64,000 nucleotides of DNA from Methanobacteriota archaeon. GTDB lineage: Archaea; Halobacteriota; Methanomicrobia; Methanomicrobiales; Methanospirillaceae. The notes below the pieces were generated by a model, which was given only the letters and a program-made list of their open reading frames with translations, was not told where the DNA came from and searched no databases. The translations under genes were made by a program, and so were the position numbers. Location of the stretch: assembly GCA_029547605.1 (NCBI GenBank), contig JAKPPB010000028.1:1-64000 (forward strand). The letters run 5' to 3'. This document shows, one piece after another, positions 3 through 11,506 of this stretch (position 1 is its first letter; the number at the start of each line of letters is the position of its first letter).

Positions 3-131
3 GACTGGTTCTGCAGGGTCAGGGGATATATCTCAACCGTGAAGAAGAATCAACTGCCTGTTCTGGCAGCTCTTGTGGATGCTTTCGAGGATAACCCCTT
101 CATTCCTTCTGTCGCTCACAGATCACACTGA
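3..131 (+). CDS. C-terminal tail of a transposase (IS66-like), cut by the window start
   Basis: An open frame enters from the left edge and stops with TGA at 129-131, giving about 42 residues. The segment RGYISTVKKNQLPVLAALV followed by NPFIPS resembles the C-terminus of IS66-type transposases, which end in a similar R-G/S-Y-I-S-T-x-K/R-K pattern. No terminal inverted repeat can be tested because most of the element lies outside the window. A hairpin follows directly. The family call is from memory of the motif and is tentative. Confidence 0.45.
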   Translation, partial: DWFCRVRGYISTVKKNQLPVLAALVDAFEDNPFIPSVAHRSH

Positions 132-142
132 ACAGTTACAAA

Positions 143-188
143 AAAATAAAAATCACGAAGTGATTTTCATTCGAAAAAATGTGTGATA
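143..188. terminator. Hairpin with flanking A/T tracts
   Basis: AAAATCAC (149-156) and GTGATTTT (160-167) form a perfect 8-bp stem with a GAA loop, flanked by A-rich sequence. It lies between the transposase tail (+) and the 3' end of the radical SAM gene (-), so it could end transcription from either side. A near copy with compensating stem changes occurs at 50938-50985, so this may be a repeated element rather than a simple terminator. Confidence 0.55.
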
Positions 189-193
189 GTCCT

Positions 194-1669
194 CTAACGG
201 GGGGGGAGAGGGGAGCTCCACCTCTTCCATACGGTCTCCCTGTATACGGGCCCGCTGTTGTAGGTGCAGAAGGGAATGAGAGTGCCATCAGGCGTTGCGT
301 AGTGTATGCAGCAACGCTGCACGCGCGAGAGGTCGTAGTTGTACCTGTCCATGAAATGCATCGTCCCAATAAAGAGGGCGTTCCAGTGGAAATCACGTAG
401 GGCTTCGAAGTTCTGGAACAGAAGAGTCTTTCCAAAGAGTTTCCAGAACTCAGAGCTGCTCCCATGCTCGCTCTTCTTGAAAGAGTCGTTCATCTCTCCG
501 ATTGCCTCAATAAGTGCCTTATATTTGTTGAAGGTCCCGCCTCTCCGAAGCTTTCCCGCAGTCTCGCTGAGCGCATGCATGAGGCTCTCGACGTCTACCA
601 TCCGGTTCACAGGCGTCAGCCCGTCGTTATTCACAAAAACGTAGGTTGCCGCACCGCAGTGCTGGTGGGCAGTGAAACGGATCTGCGGTTTGCCGGTGTA
701 GGCCTCAACAAAATCTGAGAAAGGCACCACGCAGGGCACAGGGTAGAAATCTGCCTTCTTGATCACACCGTTTGTCTGGTCTTCAATGTCGCCGAGGAGT
801 TCAGGGATGGTGATCCGTTCGCGCTGCACGTCCTCTTCGCACGCGGCCCCGGTAAAGGCAATGGGCTGGAAATTGACACCCCTGACAGCGCGGATATGGT
901 CTGCGGCAAACCTTATGATTGCGCCGACCTCGTGGTCGTTCCTGCCCTTGATTACCGTGGGGACAAGGACGATCCCGACCTTTTTCTCCTCGCTGTATTT
1001 CACCACTTTCGAATCGCTGGCAAGCTTCGGGTTCGTCTCCCTGCTCACCCCGTCGAAGTGGAGGTACAGGGTCGAGAGGCCCGCTTCGCGGAGTTCTTCA
1101 AGATAAGATGGGTCCTGCGCTATCTTGATGCCGTTTGTAGCCACCTGGACCTGGGGAAACCCCAGTTCCTTTGCGGTCCGGATGATCAGAGGGAGGTCCT
1201 CCCGCATCGTGGGCTCCCCTCCCGAGAACTGGACGGCGGGTGCAGGAACAGGCATCTCATTCCTGAGCAGTTTCATCATCTCGACAATCTGCTCGAACGT
1301 GGGTTCATATATATAGCCGCAGGCCCGTGCGTTGGCAAAACAGAAGTCGCAATTCAGGTTGCAGCGATTGGTGAGATCAATATTTGCAAGGAGGGTGCTT
1401 GACTTGTGGTTGCTGCAAATCCCGCAATAATGGGGACAACCATCGGATGGTGCGAGCCGTTGGGGGTTCTCTATTCCCCTCCCCAGTGATTCATACTGCT
1501 CGAACTTCTTCCATAACTCTGCATCAGACCAGTATAAATCCCGGAAATGACCATGTTCCGGGCAGGAGCGCTCCAGCCAGACCTTTCCATCCTCCTCAAC
1601 GACGGTTGCATCGAGGACCGCGTTGCAGATCGGGCATAAACTCCTGGTTCTCTTCAAGATCACGGCCAT
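194..1669 (-). CDS. Radical SAM enzyme, tetraether lipid synthase (Tes/Mj0619) family
   Basis: The 491-residue protein has the radical SAM signature CX3CX2C at C103, C107 and C110 (NRCNLNCDFC). A CxxC plus a further Cys at C12, C15 and C36 suggests a rubredoxin-like metal site, and another cluster of cysteines sits at C78, C82 and C85. This multi-cluster layout and a length near 500 residues match the family of M. jannaschii Mj0619, which joins archaeol chains tail to tail to make macrocyclic archaeol and GDGT lipids. Older annotations call the family a pterin methylase. The gene is divergent from carS, an archaeal lipid gene, which fits a lipid role. A closely related paralogous radical SAM activity cannot be excluded. 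Confidence 0.78.
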   Translation of the reverse strand: MAVILKRTRSLCPICNAVLDATVVEEDGKVWLERSCPEHGHFRDLYWSDAELWKKFEQYESLGRGIENPQRLAPSDGCPHYCGICSNHKSSTLLANIDLTNRCNLNCDFCFANARACGYIYEPTFEQIVEMMKLLRNEMPVPAPAVQFSGGEPTMREDLPLIIRTAKELGFPQVQVATNGIKIAQDPSYLEELREAGLSTLYLHFDGVSRETNPKLASDSKVVKYSEEKKVGIVLVPTVIKGRNDHEVGAIIRFAADHIRAVRGVNFQPIAFTGAACEEDVQRERITIPELLGDIEDQTNGVIKKADFYPVPCVVPFSDFVEAYTGKPQIRFTAHQHCGAATYVFVNNDGLTPVNRMVDVESLMHALSETAGKLRRGGTFNKYKALIEAIGEMNDSFKKSEHGSSSEFWKLFGKTLLFQNFEALRDFHWNALFIGTMHFMDRYNYDLSRVQRCCIHYATPDGTLIPFCTYNSGPVYRETVWKRWSSPLPPR

Positions 1670-5122: not shown

Positions 5123-5896
5123 ACGCCTGTATCTCGAAAGGGAATCATGTGGTTTTATTATTTCTTACTACCCCATCCTGGCACCTTTCACCTTCCTCAA
5201 CGTAGAATTTACATTGCGGTTGTAAGGGCTGGGCTTTGAAAATTTCCTCATTCAGACTGTTCCTGAACTCTACCCGTCCATCCCCGGTGATCTGCACCTT
5301 CGTCCGCACCTGCCGCGAGGAGATCATCGACTCTCTTTTCCCGGTTGAAACAGGAGCAGCTTTCCTTTTACCACGTATCTGCCGATTTACCTCAGATGAA
5401 GCCGGACAAGCCCTGCGAGAACCCCGATTACTCCATCAACGCTTCCGTGAGGACCAACCAGGACAGTTTCCAGCCCATTGGTGGATAGTCCGGGCGTAAC
5501 CTCCCAGTTTCCCGGCAACCCCTTGTGTCAGTGTCATCGACGGTAATAGGTATGGGAATGGAGTAACATGGGAGATTAAGTAACTGTATTGAATTACCCA
5601 GAAGAGGTAATAAGATTGTATTTAAGACGGTTCTTTTTTCAGGGAAATACCTTGTCGCCATTTTTTTAAGTTGACCGAATGCTGATATCTCTTCCGAGTC
5701 TGAGTGATATCACACGTGTGATTCCACGCGCATAAGCTTTATAAGTGAGTGATCTGAGTATGATGTAACGCCAGGAGTACCGCGTTCGGTACTTCTCCAG
5801 CTGGGGGGTTGGGGGTGTCGGTTCATTTACTAATGGATTTGGTATGACCTTCAAACACGGCGTTCTTTGGTTCATTATTAAAGGAGCGGTAAAAAA
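5123..5896. other. 774-base intergenic region with promoter elements near its right end
   Basis: No convincing gene is seen. Short open frames on both strands lack ribosome sites and family motifs. From 5709 on the region holds a palindrome, a TATA box and a leader hairpin that belong to the downstream protease operon; these are listed separately. The left two thirds could be a decayed gene. Confidence 0.5.
5709..5796 (+). promoter_or_regulatory. Palindromic operator candidate, TATA box and leader hairpin of the calpain operon
   Basis: ATCACACGTGTGAT at 5709-5722 is a perfect 14-bp palindrome, directly upstream of a TATA box TTTATAAG at 5738-5745. Transcription would start near 5770, leaving a leader of about 125 bases. 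A hairpin sits at the start of that leader, at 5773-5796, with core stem GTACCG/CGGTAC and loop CGTT. The placement suggests regulation at the promoter and perhaps in the leader (inference). Confidence 0.5.
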
Positions 5897-6655
5897 ATGG
5901 CATATACCTGTAAACTCTATCCAAATGCGAGCCTCTTTCTGAATGACGTCAAAGATGAGTTCGATGATCCCGTCCAGGGAAATACGGACAATTGTTGTCT
6001 TATCGCATCATTATCTGCAGTGGATTGGACAATGGGTCGGAATAAAATTAAAATTATGGTGGTGAGGGGATCATACCAAGTGTATCTTAATTCAAAATAC
6101 CTGTCTGTATCGGGAACATTGTGTCTCGATGATGATTATAAATTCAAATATGCACACTCACGAATTTTATCTGAAATCTGGCCAGGATTATATGAAAAGG
6201 CTGTTGCTTTGCATATTCATAATTCTACGGCAGATTGTGATTTTTCAAATGTGTCGTGGGATGGTAATCCCGATCGATACCTCGTAGCCCTGACTGGATG
6301 CACACTTCGTAAAAAAACTAGTAATTTACCCGCAGAAGTCTCCAGCCGGTGTTTAAGTGGAAAAGTGAAATATCCCATGGTCATATGGAACGAAAATCAT
6401 TGTTATACGGTCCTTGGCCAAAGGGCCGATGGAACATTTCTTCTCCGGGATCCATCAGGAAAGAACCCTGGACTGGATGGGGCAATCATATCAGGATATT
6501 GTAGTTTCAACAATCATTTCACCTGGGATTGCTCATCGGACTATCAATTAGGATCTTACGGCAGTTATTCAAGGAATCTTGGGGATGGTCTCTTTGCAGT
6601 GTCTGGAGATGTCTTGAAGAAATTTACCAATTTATCATATGTAGGAAAAGTATGA
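5897..6655 (+). CDS. Calpain-like (family C2) cysteine protease
   Basis: This 252-residue protein appears to be a minimal calpain protease core. The segment QGNTDNCCLIASL at 27-39 aligns with calpain Q-x5-C: Q27 would be the oxyanion glutamine and C33 the nucleophile, with the same spacing of six. EIWPGLYEKAVA at 93-104 matches the conserved calpain W-x-x-L-x-E-K-A helix. NHCYTVLG at 167-174 supplies the histidine (H168). LLRDPSG at 182-188 matches calpain LRNPWG, with D185 replacing the usual Asn. There is no signal peptide or EF-hand, so it is probably cytoplasmic. AAAGGAGCGG upstream is a good ribosome site. The gene is clearly AT-richer than its neighbours, suggesting transfer. Its stop overlaps the next start. 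Confidence 0.72.
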   Translation: MAYTCKLYPNASLFLNDVKDEFDDPVQGNTDNCCLIASLSAVDWTMGRNKIKIMVVRGSYQVYLNSKYLSVSGTLCLDDDYKFKYAHSRILSEIWPGLYEKAVALHIHNSTADCDFSNVSWDGNPDRYLVALTGCTLRKKTSNLPAEVSSRCLSGKVKYPMVIWNENHCYTVLGQRADGTFLLRDPSGKNPGLDGAIISGYCSFNNHFTWDCSSDYQLGSYGSYSRNLGDGLFAVSGDVLKKFTNLSYVGKV

Positions 6656-9516
6656 GTAAAGACTGTTCTGAATTGAGGGATAATACAGCCCCTGAAAGCA
6701 ATAGTCTTTCTAAATTCAATAAAAAAAGGATTTTTTACAATATTTTTTTGTTCGGTTTTATCGCATTTTTATTTATCCCATATCCAGTCAATGGGAGCAT
6801 TTATGAAACTGAGCAGACTTCTACGCTCCTGACAGTGATCACCTCACAATCGAATCAACAGTACCCTGGCATTTATGGGGAGAAGGTTTTCTGGGTGGAT
6901 TCATCTCTTGATAAGACGGTGCATTGTTATGATATATTCTCGGGGGAGGAAACACTCCTCAACCATAGTTATACTCCAGCAGATAGTTTTATTCCATCCA
7001 TTTTTCAAAATTACCTCTCTTTTGTCAATATGACGGATAATGGTTGCCAAGTGATTCTGCATGATTTATCTACTGATGAGGAGTTCTGGGTTGGTGGTGG
7101 AAACGAGACAAATGCATGGGATCAGGATCTCGGAGAAGGGACAATCGTATGGTCCGATAACAGGAATGGCAGTTTTGATATCTATTTATTTTACATTTCC
7201 AACCACACAGAGATTCTCCTCTCATCTGACACTGCTGATACCGATGAATCAAATCCGAAAATATCAGGCAATTATGTTGTGTGGCAGAGCGTCAACCCTG
7301 AAACATACATGAATGATATATACCTGTATTCCCTGCTCTCTGGAACTACCACCCTGATAACCCCTGGAACGGAATACCTTGAAGAAAAAAATCCAGCAAT
7401 AGATGGTGATTACATAGTATTCCAGGGTATGAATCCTGAAACCTGGTTCTATGATATTTTTATCTATAATATTTCATCCGGAGATACCCTTTTACTGACA
7501 CCGGGTACTGACGAATGTGATGAAGAGGAACCGGCTATAAACGATGGAAAGGTTGTCTGGATTGGCCAGGATCCTGATGATTTTTCCTATGCTCTCTATC
7601 TTTATGATATCAATACTGGAATCACGAGAATTCTTAAAAGAGAAAATGGTGAGACGAAACCGAGTCTCCCTGCAATTTTTCAAGAAAGGATCGTATGGCA
7701 GCAGCCGGATCCGGACACCGGATATTTCGATATATACATGTCAACGCTGGGTATCGATGCACCACCTCTTATCGCAAATTTTACCAATGACCTCTTCATT
7801 GGGGGAGTTCCCCTGCAGGTGAATTTTACTGACCTCTCACAGGGGGAACCATCAGGATGGCACTGGGATTTCGGAGATGGCACTACATCCCGGGAGCAGA
7901 ACCCTTCGCACATCTACACCATGCCCGGTGTATACGATGTCTCACTGATTGTCCATACTCCATACCAGAGGTCGGGTGTTCGAAACCCCGCATGCATCTA
8001 CGCCGGGACTCCCCCGACACCGGATTTTTCATTCGACAGGGCAGATGGACTTGCTCCTCTGACGGTCCACTTTACTGATGAGTCGACGGGCTCGCCGGAA
8101 ACTTACCTCTGGGACTTTGGTGATGGTTCCACATCTGATGAGAAAGACCCTTCACATACCTATCTGTTCCCTGGCACCTACCGGGTCTCCCTTACTACCG
8201 GCAACGAATTCGGGAATGCTACCAGTTCGGTCGAGGGCTGCATCGTGGTCCCATTCGGCGTCAGGAATGACCTTCTGCTGAATATCCCGGGCATCACATG
8301 TCGGGATGGTTTATTTCCCTGTGAATTGACCCTGAATTCGAGCCTTGTTGAGATCAATGTTATCAACAACACTTCCATCGAGGTGTTACCCGATCAGGGA
8401 ACTGGAATTGGGAAGATACTATTCATCGCCGATGAGGGTTTCTCTTTGAGAGATCAGTTCTCGATCATGGGCACTCTCAGCCGGGTGGATATTTCAAGTA
8501 TTCCGCTCTTCTACGGGGATGACAACTCGACCCTCACCTACCTGTTGAGGATGGAAGACTACCGTGTAAACGGGTCATTCCATGCGGAGGTATGGGAGAA
8601 TGCGACACCCCTTGATTACGAGAAGTTCAAAGCAATCTCGAATCTCGAATACTATTCGGGTATTTGTGGGGTTGCGTTGACTGCACGGTTCACGCAGTGC
8701 AATCTCTCGTCATGCCAAAATGGCACCCTCATATTCGGGCTCAACCCGGAATGGATTGAAATGTATGGATGGAGAAGGCCAGTACCGGTTACCACTGATC
8801 CTGACGGGGCCCAGGTATATATCGATGGGGAGTTTGTGGGGGTAACGCCACTGTTCCTTCCAGATAACCTTCCCGCGGGAAACCACACTTTGACGATATA
8901 CAGGTCTGGTTACCAGGAAGAACTGCGGAACGTCACGTTGGAGGAGAAGAGAGAGAGTATCCGGGTAATCCGGATTGCAGACGACGGGTCATATGAAATA
9001 CTCCCCGTATCATTCCTCTTCCATGATGAGATCCGGAACCTTGATTATTTCAGCACTGAATCTCCCCACGGATTCTCTACATTCGGTGTGGTGTCAGCCA
9101 GCCATGCAGGAAGCCCGATCCAGATCTTCTACCTCATTCTCAGCAAGTTATTTTCAAGCGCAGGTACTAGTAGCAGCACAAGTAGCAGCCAAGCGATCAA
9201 AACATCCGACTCCATCGGTTCCCCTGCCCCTGCCCCTATGGTAATCCCTCCAGAGAGGAGTCCATCCGAGCAGATTCCTACAGTTATCGAAACACCTCCC
9301 TATGGCACCCCCCCCACGGTTACCACCCTTCCCACATCTCCTCTTTCTTCGCCGACAGAGACTCCTGGAGCAGATCAAATACCTAAAAACCCTGAAGCGG
9401 TCTTCCCTTCAGTCATAGGCTATTCCTTTGTCAGGAATGTAGCCATCGTCTTTGGTATAGTCCTGGTTGCAGCAATTCTTGTGCTAAGATGGAGAAAGGG
9501 AGGGACCGGGCCTTGA
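6652..9516 (+). CDS. Membrane-anchored surface protein with beta-propeller, two PKD domains and a PEGA domain
   Basis: The start chosen at 6652 overlaps the protease stop (ATGA), giving 954 residues. An N-terminal hydrophobic segment at about 24-47 is a signal or anchor. TolB/WD40-like repeats follow at about 60-365, with recurring patterns such as NPAIDGDYIVF and YDIFIYN. Two PKD domains at about 371-455 and 455-540 each carry WDFGDG. A less clear region comes next, then a PEGA domain at about 707-770 (VTTDPDGAQVYIDGEFVG). A Ser/Thr/Pro-rich linker and a C-terminal membrane helix with basic tail at about 920-950 complete it. Most of the chain would be outside the cell. Coupling to the protease gene suggests a joint function, which is unknown. 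Confidence 0.8.
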   Translation: MSKDCSELRDNTAPESNSLSKFNKKRIFYNIFLFGFIAFLFIPYPVNGSIYETEQTSTLLTVITSQSNQQYPGIYGEKVFWVDSSLDKTVHCYDIFSGEETLLNHSYTPADSFIPSIFQNYLSFVNMTDNGCQVILHDLSTDEEFWVGGGNETNAWDQDLGEGTIVWSDNRNGSFDIYLFYISNHTEILLSSDTADTDESNPKISGNYVVWQSVNPETYMNDIYLYSLLSGTTTLITPGTEYLEEKNPAIDGDYIVFQGMNPETWFYDIFIYNISSGDTLLLTPGTDECDEEEPAINDGKVVWIGQDPDDFSYALYLYDINTGITRILKRENGETKPSLPAIFQERIVWQQPDPDTGYFDIYMSTLGIDAPPLIANFTNDLFIGGVPLQVNFTDLSQGEPSGWHWDFGDGTTSREQNPSHIYTMPGVYDVSLIVHTPYQRSGVRNPACIYAGTPPTPDFSFDRADGLAPLTVHFTDESTGSPETYLWDFGDGSTSDEKDPSHTYLFPGTYRVSLTTGNEFGNATSSVEGCIVVPFGVRNDLLLNIPGITCRDGLFPCELTLNSSLVEINVINNTSIEVLPDQGTGIGKILFIADEGFSLRDQFSIMGTLSRVDISSIPLFYGDDNSTLTYLLRMEDYRVNGSFHAEVWENATPLDYEKFKAISNLEYYSGICGVALTARFTQCNLSSCQNGTLIFGLNPEWIEMYGWRRPVPVTTDPDGAQVYIDGEFVGVTPLFLPDNLPAGNHTLTIYRSGYQEELRNVTLEEKRESIRVIRIADDGSYEILPVSFLFHDEIRNLDYFSTESPHGFSTFGVVSASHAGSPIQIFYLILSKLFSSAGTSSSTSSSQAIKTSDSIGSPAPAPMVIPPERSPSEQIPTVIETPPYGTPPTVTTLPTSPLSSPTETPGADQIPKNPEAVFPSVIGYSFVRNVAIVFGIVLVAAILVLRWRKGGTGP

Positions 9517-9544: not shown

Positions 9545-10510
9545 ATGAACCTGGCGGAGCTGATTCGCCAGACAACCGCCCCTGATGTCTGTTTCCTCGA
9601 ATCGCGGGGAAACGTCAGGGGCCTTGTGGCTCTCCTCACAACCAAAGACTATAAGACAAGGAATGCGGCCGCCGATGCTCTGGGAAGGCTCGGAAACCCT
9701 GCGCTCACGACACTCCATATCCGTGCAGGCCTGGGCAGCGCTCCCGAACGGATAGGGATCCTTGAAGCACTGGCAAGGATTCGAAACCCGGCCAGTGTAC
9801 CCTATCTTTCGAAGGTCCTCACCGGCGATCCGGCCAGCGAGATCCGATGGATTGCAGCGATCGCGCTCGGCGAGATAGGGGGAGAAGAAGCCATCCAGGC
9901 GTTAAGGGCCGGACTGAGGGACCGTGACAAGTACGTGCGCTTCGGCTCCGCAAAGGCGCTTTATGGACTTGGCTGGATACCGCATGATCCCGAGGAAGAG
10001 GTGAGGCTCATGGTGGCCCGACAGGCCTGGAGCGCGATTCCAGGCTTTGGGGCTGTCCCGGCGCTTGTGCTTACAGAGTATCTTGATGACCCTGATCCGG
10101 GGATCAGGAGGGCAGTTGTCTCAGTGCTGGGAATGCTTGGAGACCCGGTTACGGAAAAATCATGTGACAAGGCGATGCGTGACCCTGATCCTTCGGTGCG
10201 GTGGGCAGCGAGCCTTGCATTTCCTCACTGCCAGGTCCCCAGGATGTACCTCCCGGGAGCCATGTCACGAAGGCCAAGAACGGGAAAGAGCCTGTACGTG
10301 GCAGTTTTTCTCAACTTCTTCTTCCTGGGGCTTGGCTACAATTACCTCGGCAAATGGTGGGGTTTCCTCCTTTTCCAGGTCAATCTCAACACCATCATGC
10401 TCCTCTCTCTGATCTACAAGACATTCCTTCCATACCCCATCTCCCTCGGAGTCTCGACAGTTGCTGCATTCCATACCTGGCATATCATGAGGGGGATGCC
10501 GGATATATGA
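9545..10510 (+). CDS. HEAT-repeat protein with C-terminal membrane domain (first paralogue)
   Basis: The first 240 or so of 321 residues are HEAT/PBS-lyase-type helical repeats (for example RNAAADALGRLGNPA and IRWIAAIALGEIGGEEAI), a fold used for protein binding. From about residue 250 there are hydrophobic segments with the pattern FLNFFFLGLGYNYLGKWWG, which resembles a TM2-type two-helix membrane domain. The repeats are probably cytoplasmic. It is followed 33 bases later by a paralogue with the same architecture. Location downstream of the surface protein suggests a shared unit, although the 28-base gap lacks a strong ribosome site. Confidence 0.75.
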   Translation: MNLAELIRQTTAPDVCFLESRGNVRGLVALLTTKDYKTRNAAADALGRLGNPALTTLHIRAGLGSAPERIGILEALARIRNPASVPYLSKVLTGDPASEIRWIAAIALGEIGGEEAIQALRAGLRDRDKYVRFGSAKALYGLGWIPHDPEEEVRLMVARQAWSAIPGFGAVPALVLTEYLDDPDPGIRRAVVSVLGMLGDPVTEKSCDKAMRDPDPSVRWAASLAFPHCQVPRMYLPGAMSRRPRTGKSLYVAVFLNFFFLGLGYNYLGKWWGFLLFQVNLNTIMLLSLIYKTFLPYPISLGVSTVAAFHTWHIMRGMPDI

Positions 10511-10543: not shown

Positions 10544-11506
10544 GTGATGCCGTCATGGATAACAGATTTTTCAAGGCCTGATGTGGAGGCCTTGAAAGAG
10601 AGCAGGGACTACCACGGACTCACGAAAGCCCTCAGCCACTCCGATTCAAGAATACAATGGAAGGCTGCCCGGGCACTAGGCGATCTTGGGGAAGAAAGCC
10701 TGGACTATCTTATCGGAGCCATTGATACTACCTGGAACAGGGAAGCACGAATTGGTATCATCGAAGCACTCGGGCTCATAGGTGGCCCGCGGGTGGTGAA
10801 GCCTCTCGTTGCCCAGATGGAGGACAGAAGCAACGAGGTCCGGTGGGAGGCGGTCATGGCCCTGGGGGAGACGGGTGAAAAGGCGGCCATTCCTCCATTG
10901 AGGAAGGCGCTTGAGGACGAGGATAAGTATGTCCGCTACGGGGCGGCGCTCTCTCTCCAGACCCTCTCATGGCAACCCGAGACAGAACGCGATGAAGCAT
11001 TCCTGCTGGTCGGGTTACAGGAATGGGATACGCTTAAGGGACTCGGTTCATGTGCCGTGGAAGCGCTTGCGAATGCCATGAGGGACCATGACAGGAACGT
11101 CAGAGTCGAGGCAGTGAAGGCGCTTGGCGCACTCCGTGCGAAAGAGGCAATCCCAATACTGTACCGTGCCATTCGCGACCCTGACGAGGAGGTCCGTTGG
11201 GAGGCAGTGCAGGCTGCGCCTGCATGCGGCCTGCCCATGCGGTTTCTTCCAAGAGCCCTCGCACGTCGCCCCCGTTCAAGAAAAAACCCGATTGTGGCTG
11301 GTTTCCTCAATTTCATGCTCCCGGGAATGGGATACATGTATATCGGCCTCTGGTGGGGGGTCCTCATCTTCCAGGTCGACGTATACGCGACACTATGGAC
11401 CTTCGCAGCCACGGGGGAATTCATCTCGCTCACACTCCTCTTTCCAGTCTATTTCCTCCTTGCGATCCATGCCTGGTTCATGGCACGGAAGATGCCTGAC
11501 CTCTAG
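10544..11506 (+). CDS. HEAT-repeat protein with C-terminal membrane domain (second paralogue)
   Basis: A 320-residue paralogue of the preceding gene: PDV.x.LKESRDYHGL at the N-terminus, repeats such as VRWEAVMALGETGEKAAI, and the membrane segment FLNFMLPGMGYMYIGLWWG near residue 250. Both proteins end in a basic MPD motif (RGMPDI, RKMPDL). The start is GTG 10544 or ATG 10547, after an AGGGGGGG stretch. The pair arose by tandem duplication and has diverged widely, more in the last helices than in the repeats. Function is unknown; a membrane-attached scaffold is a reasonable guess. Confidence 0.75.
   Translation: MMPSWITDFSRPDVEALKESRDYHGLTKALSHSDSRIQWKAARALGDLGEESLDYLIGAIDTTWNREARIGIIEALGLIGGPRVVKPLVAQMEDRSNEVRWEAVMALGETGEKAAIPPLRKALEDEDKYVRYGAALSLQTLSWQPETERDEAFLLVGLQEWDTLKGLGSCAVEALANAMRDHDRNVRVEAVKALGALRAKEAIPILYRAIRDPDEEVRWEAVQAAPACGLPMRFLPRALARRPRSRKNPIVAGFLNFMLPGMGYMYIGLWWGVLIFQVDVYATLWTFAATGEFISLTLLFPVYFLLAIHAWFMARKMPDL

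Follow-up and report, generated by a model that had tools for sequence, protein, structure and literature searches.

A calpain-family protease core encoded beside a propeller/PKD surface protein and a HEAT-repeat membrane protein pair in archaea

The window (the whole stretch of archaeal DNA analysed here, 64,000 nucleotides) encodes a 252-residue protein that belongs, almost certainly, to calpain family C2 (MEROPS C2/Pfam PF00648), followed by a large exported surface protein and by two HEAT-repeat membrane proteins (Table 1). Calpains were stated to be absent from archaea in papers of 2015 and 2022 (PMC4631099, PMC9380684), and no report of archaeal calpains was found in our searches of open-licence papers. 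The window protein and its relatives add a new archaeal branch to a known protease family; the archaeal calpains, their gene set and the leader preceding it seem to be undescribed, those relatives scoring above the Pfam cut-off being probably already tagged in databases.

Table 1 Features of the calpain locus (nucleotide positions of the window, or residues of the surface protein where indicated).
Feature	Position	Strand	Basis
TATA-box-like element CTTTATAAG	5737..5745	+	consensus match only; 12 bases before the leader
Conserved 5' leader, possible structured RNA	5757..5872	+	six orthologues aligned
Putative leader closing helix AACGCC/GGCGTT	5767-5772 with 5859-5864	+	
Putative leader hairpins (two)	5777-5792; 5793-5815	+	
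Shine-Dalgarno-like AAAGGAG	5880..5886	+	sequence; 10 bases upstream of the start codon at 5897
Calpain-family (C2) cysteine protease core, 252 aa	5897..6655	+	ORF, Pfam, fold, profile, alignment
ATGA stop/start overlap, calpain/surface gene	6652..6655	+	sequence; ATG at 6652
Exported single-pass surface protein, 954 aa	6652..9516	+	Pfam, NCBIfam, structure model
Signal helix	surface protein residues 22-40		structure model
Seven-bladed propeller	surface protein residues about 55-366		model, NCBIfam beta-propeller repeats (TIGR04275)
PKD 1 and PKD 2	surface protein		Pfam
Uncharacterised beta domain between PKD 2 and PEGA	surface protein residues 536-710 (window 8257-8781)		confident fold
PEGA	surface protein residues 713-768		Pfam
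Conserved domain after PEGA	surface protein residues 770-835		
Pro/Thr-rich linker, disordered, then TM 922-949 and short basic tail	surface protein C-terminus		
HEAT-A: HEAT repeats + C-terminal hydrophobic domain, motif LNFFFLGLGYNYLGKWWGF	9545..10510	+	Pfam
HEAT-B: HEAT repeats + C-terminal hydrophobic domain, motif LNFMLPGMGYMYIGLWWGVLIFQ	10544..11506	+	Pfam

Taken alone, the window protein matches Pfam Peptidase_C2 with 11.4 bits (cut-off 23.8; E 0.16), and since single-sequence evidence of this kind is weak, relatives were needed. In an alignment of the window protein with 14 relatives from other genomes, 14 of the 15 members matched Peptidase_C2 at E<=0.1 (best 2.9e-20), and the AlphaFold2 model built on this alignment (pLDDT 89.5, pTM 0.91) has a calpain-core fold. 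All 33 PDB matches found by Foldseek with E<=0.001 are calpain cores, at global TM-scores of 0.5-0.7 and with a large rmsd, which we interpret as the two core halves standing at another angle in the model than in the PDB calpains. The archaeal family profile recovers human calpains from sequence only (CAPN5, 6.2e-16; CAPN9, 4.5e-15), the alignment covering about positions 24-274 of 278, that is, both core halves. A chance Peptidase_C2 match was rejected, since relatives, fold and profile are concordant; the protease identity of the protein is thus well supported by model and sequence. The calpain-like C2 protease proposed in the first-pass annotation is borne out by the fold, the structural matches and the profile, its W-x-x-L-x-E-K-A motif is present (W at W95), and the non-calpain fold that it had named as grounds for rejection was not obtained. 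None of the rejection tests it had proposed, among those that were run, overturned the calpain interpretation. A comparison of three close orthologues gave pN of 0.07-0.10 and pS of 0.65-0.72 (synonymous sites near saturation), indicating that strong purifying selection acts on the gene. With no apparent signal peptide, the 252-residue protein is presumed to be cytosolic. At L029, L030, L033, L066, L075 and L079-L081 the calpains are longer (380-585 aa) and extended at the N-terminus; a Pfam scan of those submitted to it found Peptidase_C2 and no further family.

The putative catalytic residues Q27, C33, H168 and D185 are all present in the window ORF, as first described, and by profile-to-sequence alignment the catalytic Cys, His and Asn of the human calpains fall on those of the archaeal family. 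Among the 45 family sequences, counting those with data, Q27 and C33 are conserved in 44/44 and H168 in 45/45, with 35 Asn and nine Asp at position 185 (44/44 N or D; Asp185 in the window). This conservation stands despite a median end branch of 0.71 changes per site in the calpain tree, which forces at least four switches between Asn and Asp at position 185. The Asp had been noted as unusual; it is no special mark of the window protein, Asp being a minority state (9/44) of several origins with a precedent in the PalB peptidase, where Asp in the Asn position is compatible with activity (PMC4631099). The protein might instead be a non-catalytic homologue acting as a binding subunit of a membrane complex, since there are eukaryotic calpain homologues that are not peptidases (PMC4631099) and Asp replaces Asn in the window. 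We consider this very improbable: no member has lost the Gln, Cys or His, position 185 varies between Asn and Asp only, and, as PalB shows, Asp need not preclude activity. A pseudoprotease postulated from Asp185 is likewise unlikely, because Asp is a recurrent state in the family tree.

Compared with human and animal calpains (CAPN1, 2, 3, 5, 9; MEROPS C2), the archaeal protein shares the core fold in both halves, the Q-x5-C, H-x-Y/F and [N/D]-P motifs and, in the alignment to human calpains, the calcium site 1 acidic residues D24 and E93 (D in 35/45 and E in 32/45 of the family). It differs in being only about 15% identical, in its archaeal operon setting and, in the window, in its third catalytic residue, Asp; in addition, the site 2 residues are not kept in the same alignment, and neither C2-like nor penta-EF-hand domains were found with Pfam, the 252 residues being core only. 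By the two calcium sites and these accessory domains, the protein would not be placed in the classical calcium-dependent calpain class. Some bacterial calpain homologues have site 1 only, as reported by Rawlings (PMC4631099).

Profile searches found the calpain family in 45 of the 232 genomes of the window's class, all of them in the window's order and in three families; among 393 genomes drawn evenly from the phylum, PF00648 was found only in that order (11 genomes). A viral origin was rejected, as no viral relatives were detected in a search that used one peptide pattern only; a plasmid origin was also rejected, the only plasmid record being a weak match in Streptomyces (NZ_CP081497; 24.7% identity to the archaeal calpain, E 4e-4). 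The surface gene lies directly 3' of the calpain gene and on the same strand at 42/42 testable loci (41 fetched plus the window; three further loci, which end at a contig edge, were left out), with a spacing of -77 to 162 bases. Co-occurrence of the surface protein was assessed by synteny; a full-length surface profile is uninformative alone because propeller and PKD paralogues abound. The pairing recurs in dozens of genomes other than that of the window, far more often than chance would give, as the neighbourhood search suggested in the first-pass annotation was meant to establish. A four-base calpain/surface overlap is also seen at three other loci (L027, L029, L065), and the overlap may reflect translational coupling. 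In one genome (G170, locus L078) two calpain and surface gene pairs stand in tandem.

The 954-residue neighbour with a propeller, two PKD domains, a PEGA domain and the stop/start overlap was confirmed in every part. The model of the surface protein (pLDDT 79.9) has as its best PDB match 1l0q (E 7e-16), an archaeal surface-layer protein with a tandem YVTN propeller and PKD; unlike 1l0q, the window protein has two PKD domains, the additional beta domain (for which Pfam gave no match), PEGA and a TM anchor, and it is paired with a protease. The number of blades was taken from the seven conserved blade prolines, and TM topology was judged by hydropathy and charge. The surface gene at L020:10450-13287 (G011) is interrupted in its propeller region by a single TAG in frame, and that of G026 likewise shows one TAG; these may be either pseudogenes or assembly errors.

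The two HEAT-repeat membrane proteins reported downstream of the surface gene are present, and basic residues ahead of the first hydrophobic segment suggest that their HEAT domains face the cytosol. The HEAT pair was found in 43/45 calpain genomes (including a separate contig in G172) compared with 17/187 others (Fisher p 2e-30 at genome level, not corrected for shared ancestry); as for the two calpain genomes lacking it, one contig ends inside the calpain gene and the other genome is 64% complete. Its position varies: downstream of the surface gene as in the window, upstream of the calpain gene, or elsewhere. The idea that the calpain, surface and HEAT genes form one unit was thus upheld for the tight calpain and surface gene pair and not for a fixed downstream HEAT pair, which is a movable partner. 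Among the 17 genomes with the HEAT pair only, five have a contig break at the expected calpain site and about 12 seem truly calpain-free, so that the HEAT pair must have some function of its own. In G027 (L108) argF is followed directly by HEAT-A, the calpain and surface genes both being missing; in G001 (L104) the HEAT pair is present at the argF locus, with no calpain gene and only a truncated surface gene. Judging from the HEAT-only genomes and these two loci, the calpain comes with the surface protein and the HEAT pair, but not conversely.

The reading we favour, at an evenly balanced confidence, is that an active cytosolic C2 protease forms one module with the surface propeller/PKD protein and, usually, the HEAT pair. 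It draws on the confidently predicted calpain fold, the conserved residues, purifying selection, the constant pairing with the surface gene, the co-occurrence of the HEAT pair and the co-exchange of the calpain with the first propeller part; the HEAT pairs in calpain-free genomes and the window protein's score below the Pfam cut-off count against it. The propeller would sense or bind an extracellular ligand; a membrane platform would be made up of the HEAT-TM proteins together with the single TM helix; and recruitment to, or activation at, this platform would let the calpain cut a few cytosolic or membrane targets by limited proteolysis. As the cytosolic tail of the surface protein is only a few residues long, the signal would pass via the HEAT proteins or the membrane. 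We infer the signalling role of the module along with its elements: that the calpain is catalytically active, that the parts make physical contact, that the HEAT domains face the cytosol, which way the signal runs, what the calpain cleaves and whether calcium exerts control. Alternatively, the calpain might have no signalling role and be dedicated to the maturation or quality control of the surface protein, acting in the cytosol to trim or remove it (or its tail) when nascent or mis-inserted; this would account for the strict surface-gene pairing and the translational overlap. We hold it to be unlikely, since the surface protein has its folded parts on the outer side of the membrane and no signal peptide is apparent in the calpain, and it leaves the HEAT pair unexplained.

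Comparison of the window with its close relative G011 (locus L020) points to exchange of part of the locus. The flanking radical-SAM, purD, argF and 499-aa proteins are 94-99% identical between the two, compared with 53% for the calpain, and the L020 calpain is 87% identical to that of L021 and 81% to that of L022, although the radical-SAM, purD and argF flanks of L020 and L022 are only 82-87% identical; the calpain tree groups L020 with L021 and L022 (support 100/98). The first propeller part is 47% identical between the window and L020, and the PKD part and HEAT proteins 68-82%. GC content is 0.41 in the calpain gene, 0.40 in the N-terminal and 0.51 in the C-terminal part of the surface gene, and 0.53-0.60 in the flanking genes. 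An AT-rich stretch at 5897-7750 (GC about 0.40; window 0.55) corresponds to the calpain gene plus the first surface-gene part. These comparisons of sequence point to replacement of the calpain and first propeller part as a cassette by allelic exchange; indirectly, this suggests that the two must match. The co-exchange also fits a protease-substrate pair, as expected of a maturation protease.

Replacement of alleles against near-identical flanks, together with the patchy presence, the AT-rich composition and a fixed locus from which calpain and surface gene are both absent (G027), would also suit a recognition or conflict module (kin recognition, anti-virus), in which a polymorphic, exposed propeller would detect a virus or a neighbour and set the calpain loose within the cell as a suicide or disabling effector. 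We regard such a function as distinctly unlikely, given that PADLOC gave no match for the calpain or the surface protein, that the HEAT proteins match generic HEAT models only, that the flanking genes are housekeeping genes (argF, purD) and that the viral search with its one peptide pattern was negative.

Upstream of the calpain gene, most Methanolinea orthologues carry an equivalent TATA-like element in the same place, followed by the leader. In the consensus fold of the leader 88.5% of cells are paired, compared with 40-50% when slid, and four pairs show compensatory change; 21-93 of 500 shuffle controls reached the observed value, there is little variation in the closing helix and the covariation energy term counts slightly against the fold. 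An RNA structure is thus suggested only. The covariance model matches once per genome in 7/7 calpain-bearing Methanolinea genomes: strong matches (E of at most 4e-13) are confined to the six genomes used as seed, and the non-seed G010 has a weak match (E 0.17) exactly before its calpain gene. The other six weak matches look like noise; the model found the leader in 0/6 Methanolinea genomes without a detected calpain and gave nothing convincing outside Methanolinea. AACGCC-like elements occur near the presumed transcript start in some distant genera. A known riboswitch was rejected, Rfam having no match at E<=0.5, and the leader is a candidate new regulatory RNA. The more elaborate proposal, that an allelically variable propeller receptor controls the cytosolic calpain via HEAT adaptors while a leader of a new RNA family governs expression, is possible but doubtful.

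The archaeal calpains resemble the bacterial homologues (PMC4631099, PMC9380684) in their minimal core, prokaryotic host, patchy distribution and, at most, calcium site 1; they seem to differ in their partners, no report of a propeller/PKD surface protein plus HEAT-TM pair being found in the available parts of the literature on the bacterial proteins. Many cyanobacterial calpains carry PPC domains (PMC9380684).

Plant DEK1 is a membrane-tethered eukaryotic calpain. The archaeal module might work in a like manner, by analogy, linking a calpain core with a membrane component, although here the parts are separate proteins.

The absence of calpains from archaea underlies part of the argument on calpain evolution in both papers (PMC4631099, PMC9380684), and 45/232 genomes of the class with a calpain alter the distribution used in such arguments. 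That the family is restricted, within the part searched, to one order is easier to reconcile with acquisition from bacteria than with ancestry to eukaryotes. The fixed set of receptor, protease and scaffold genes provides a testable hypothesis for how prokaryotes, where little is known of calpain use, may employ these proteases; if the proposed module is true, archaea would have a hitherto undescribed system for proteolytic signalling across the membrane.
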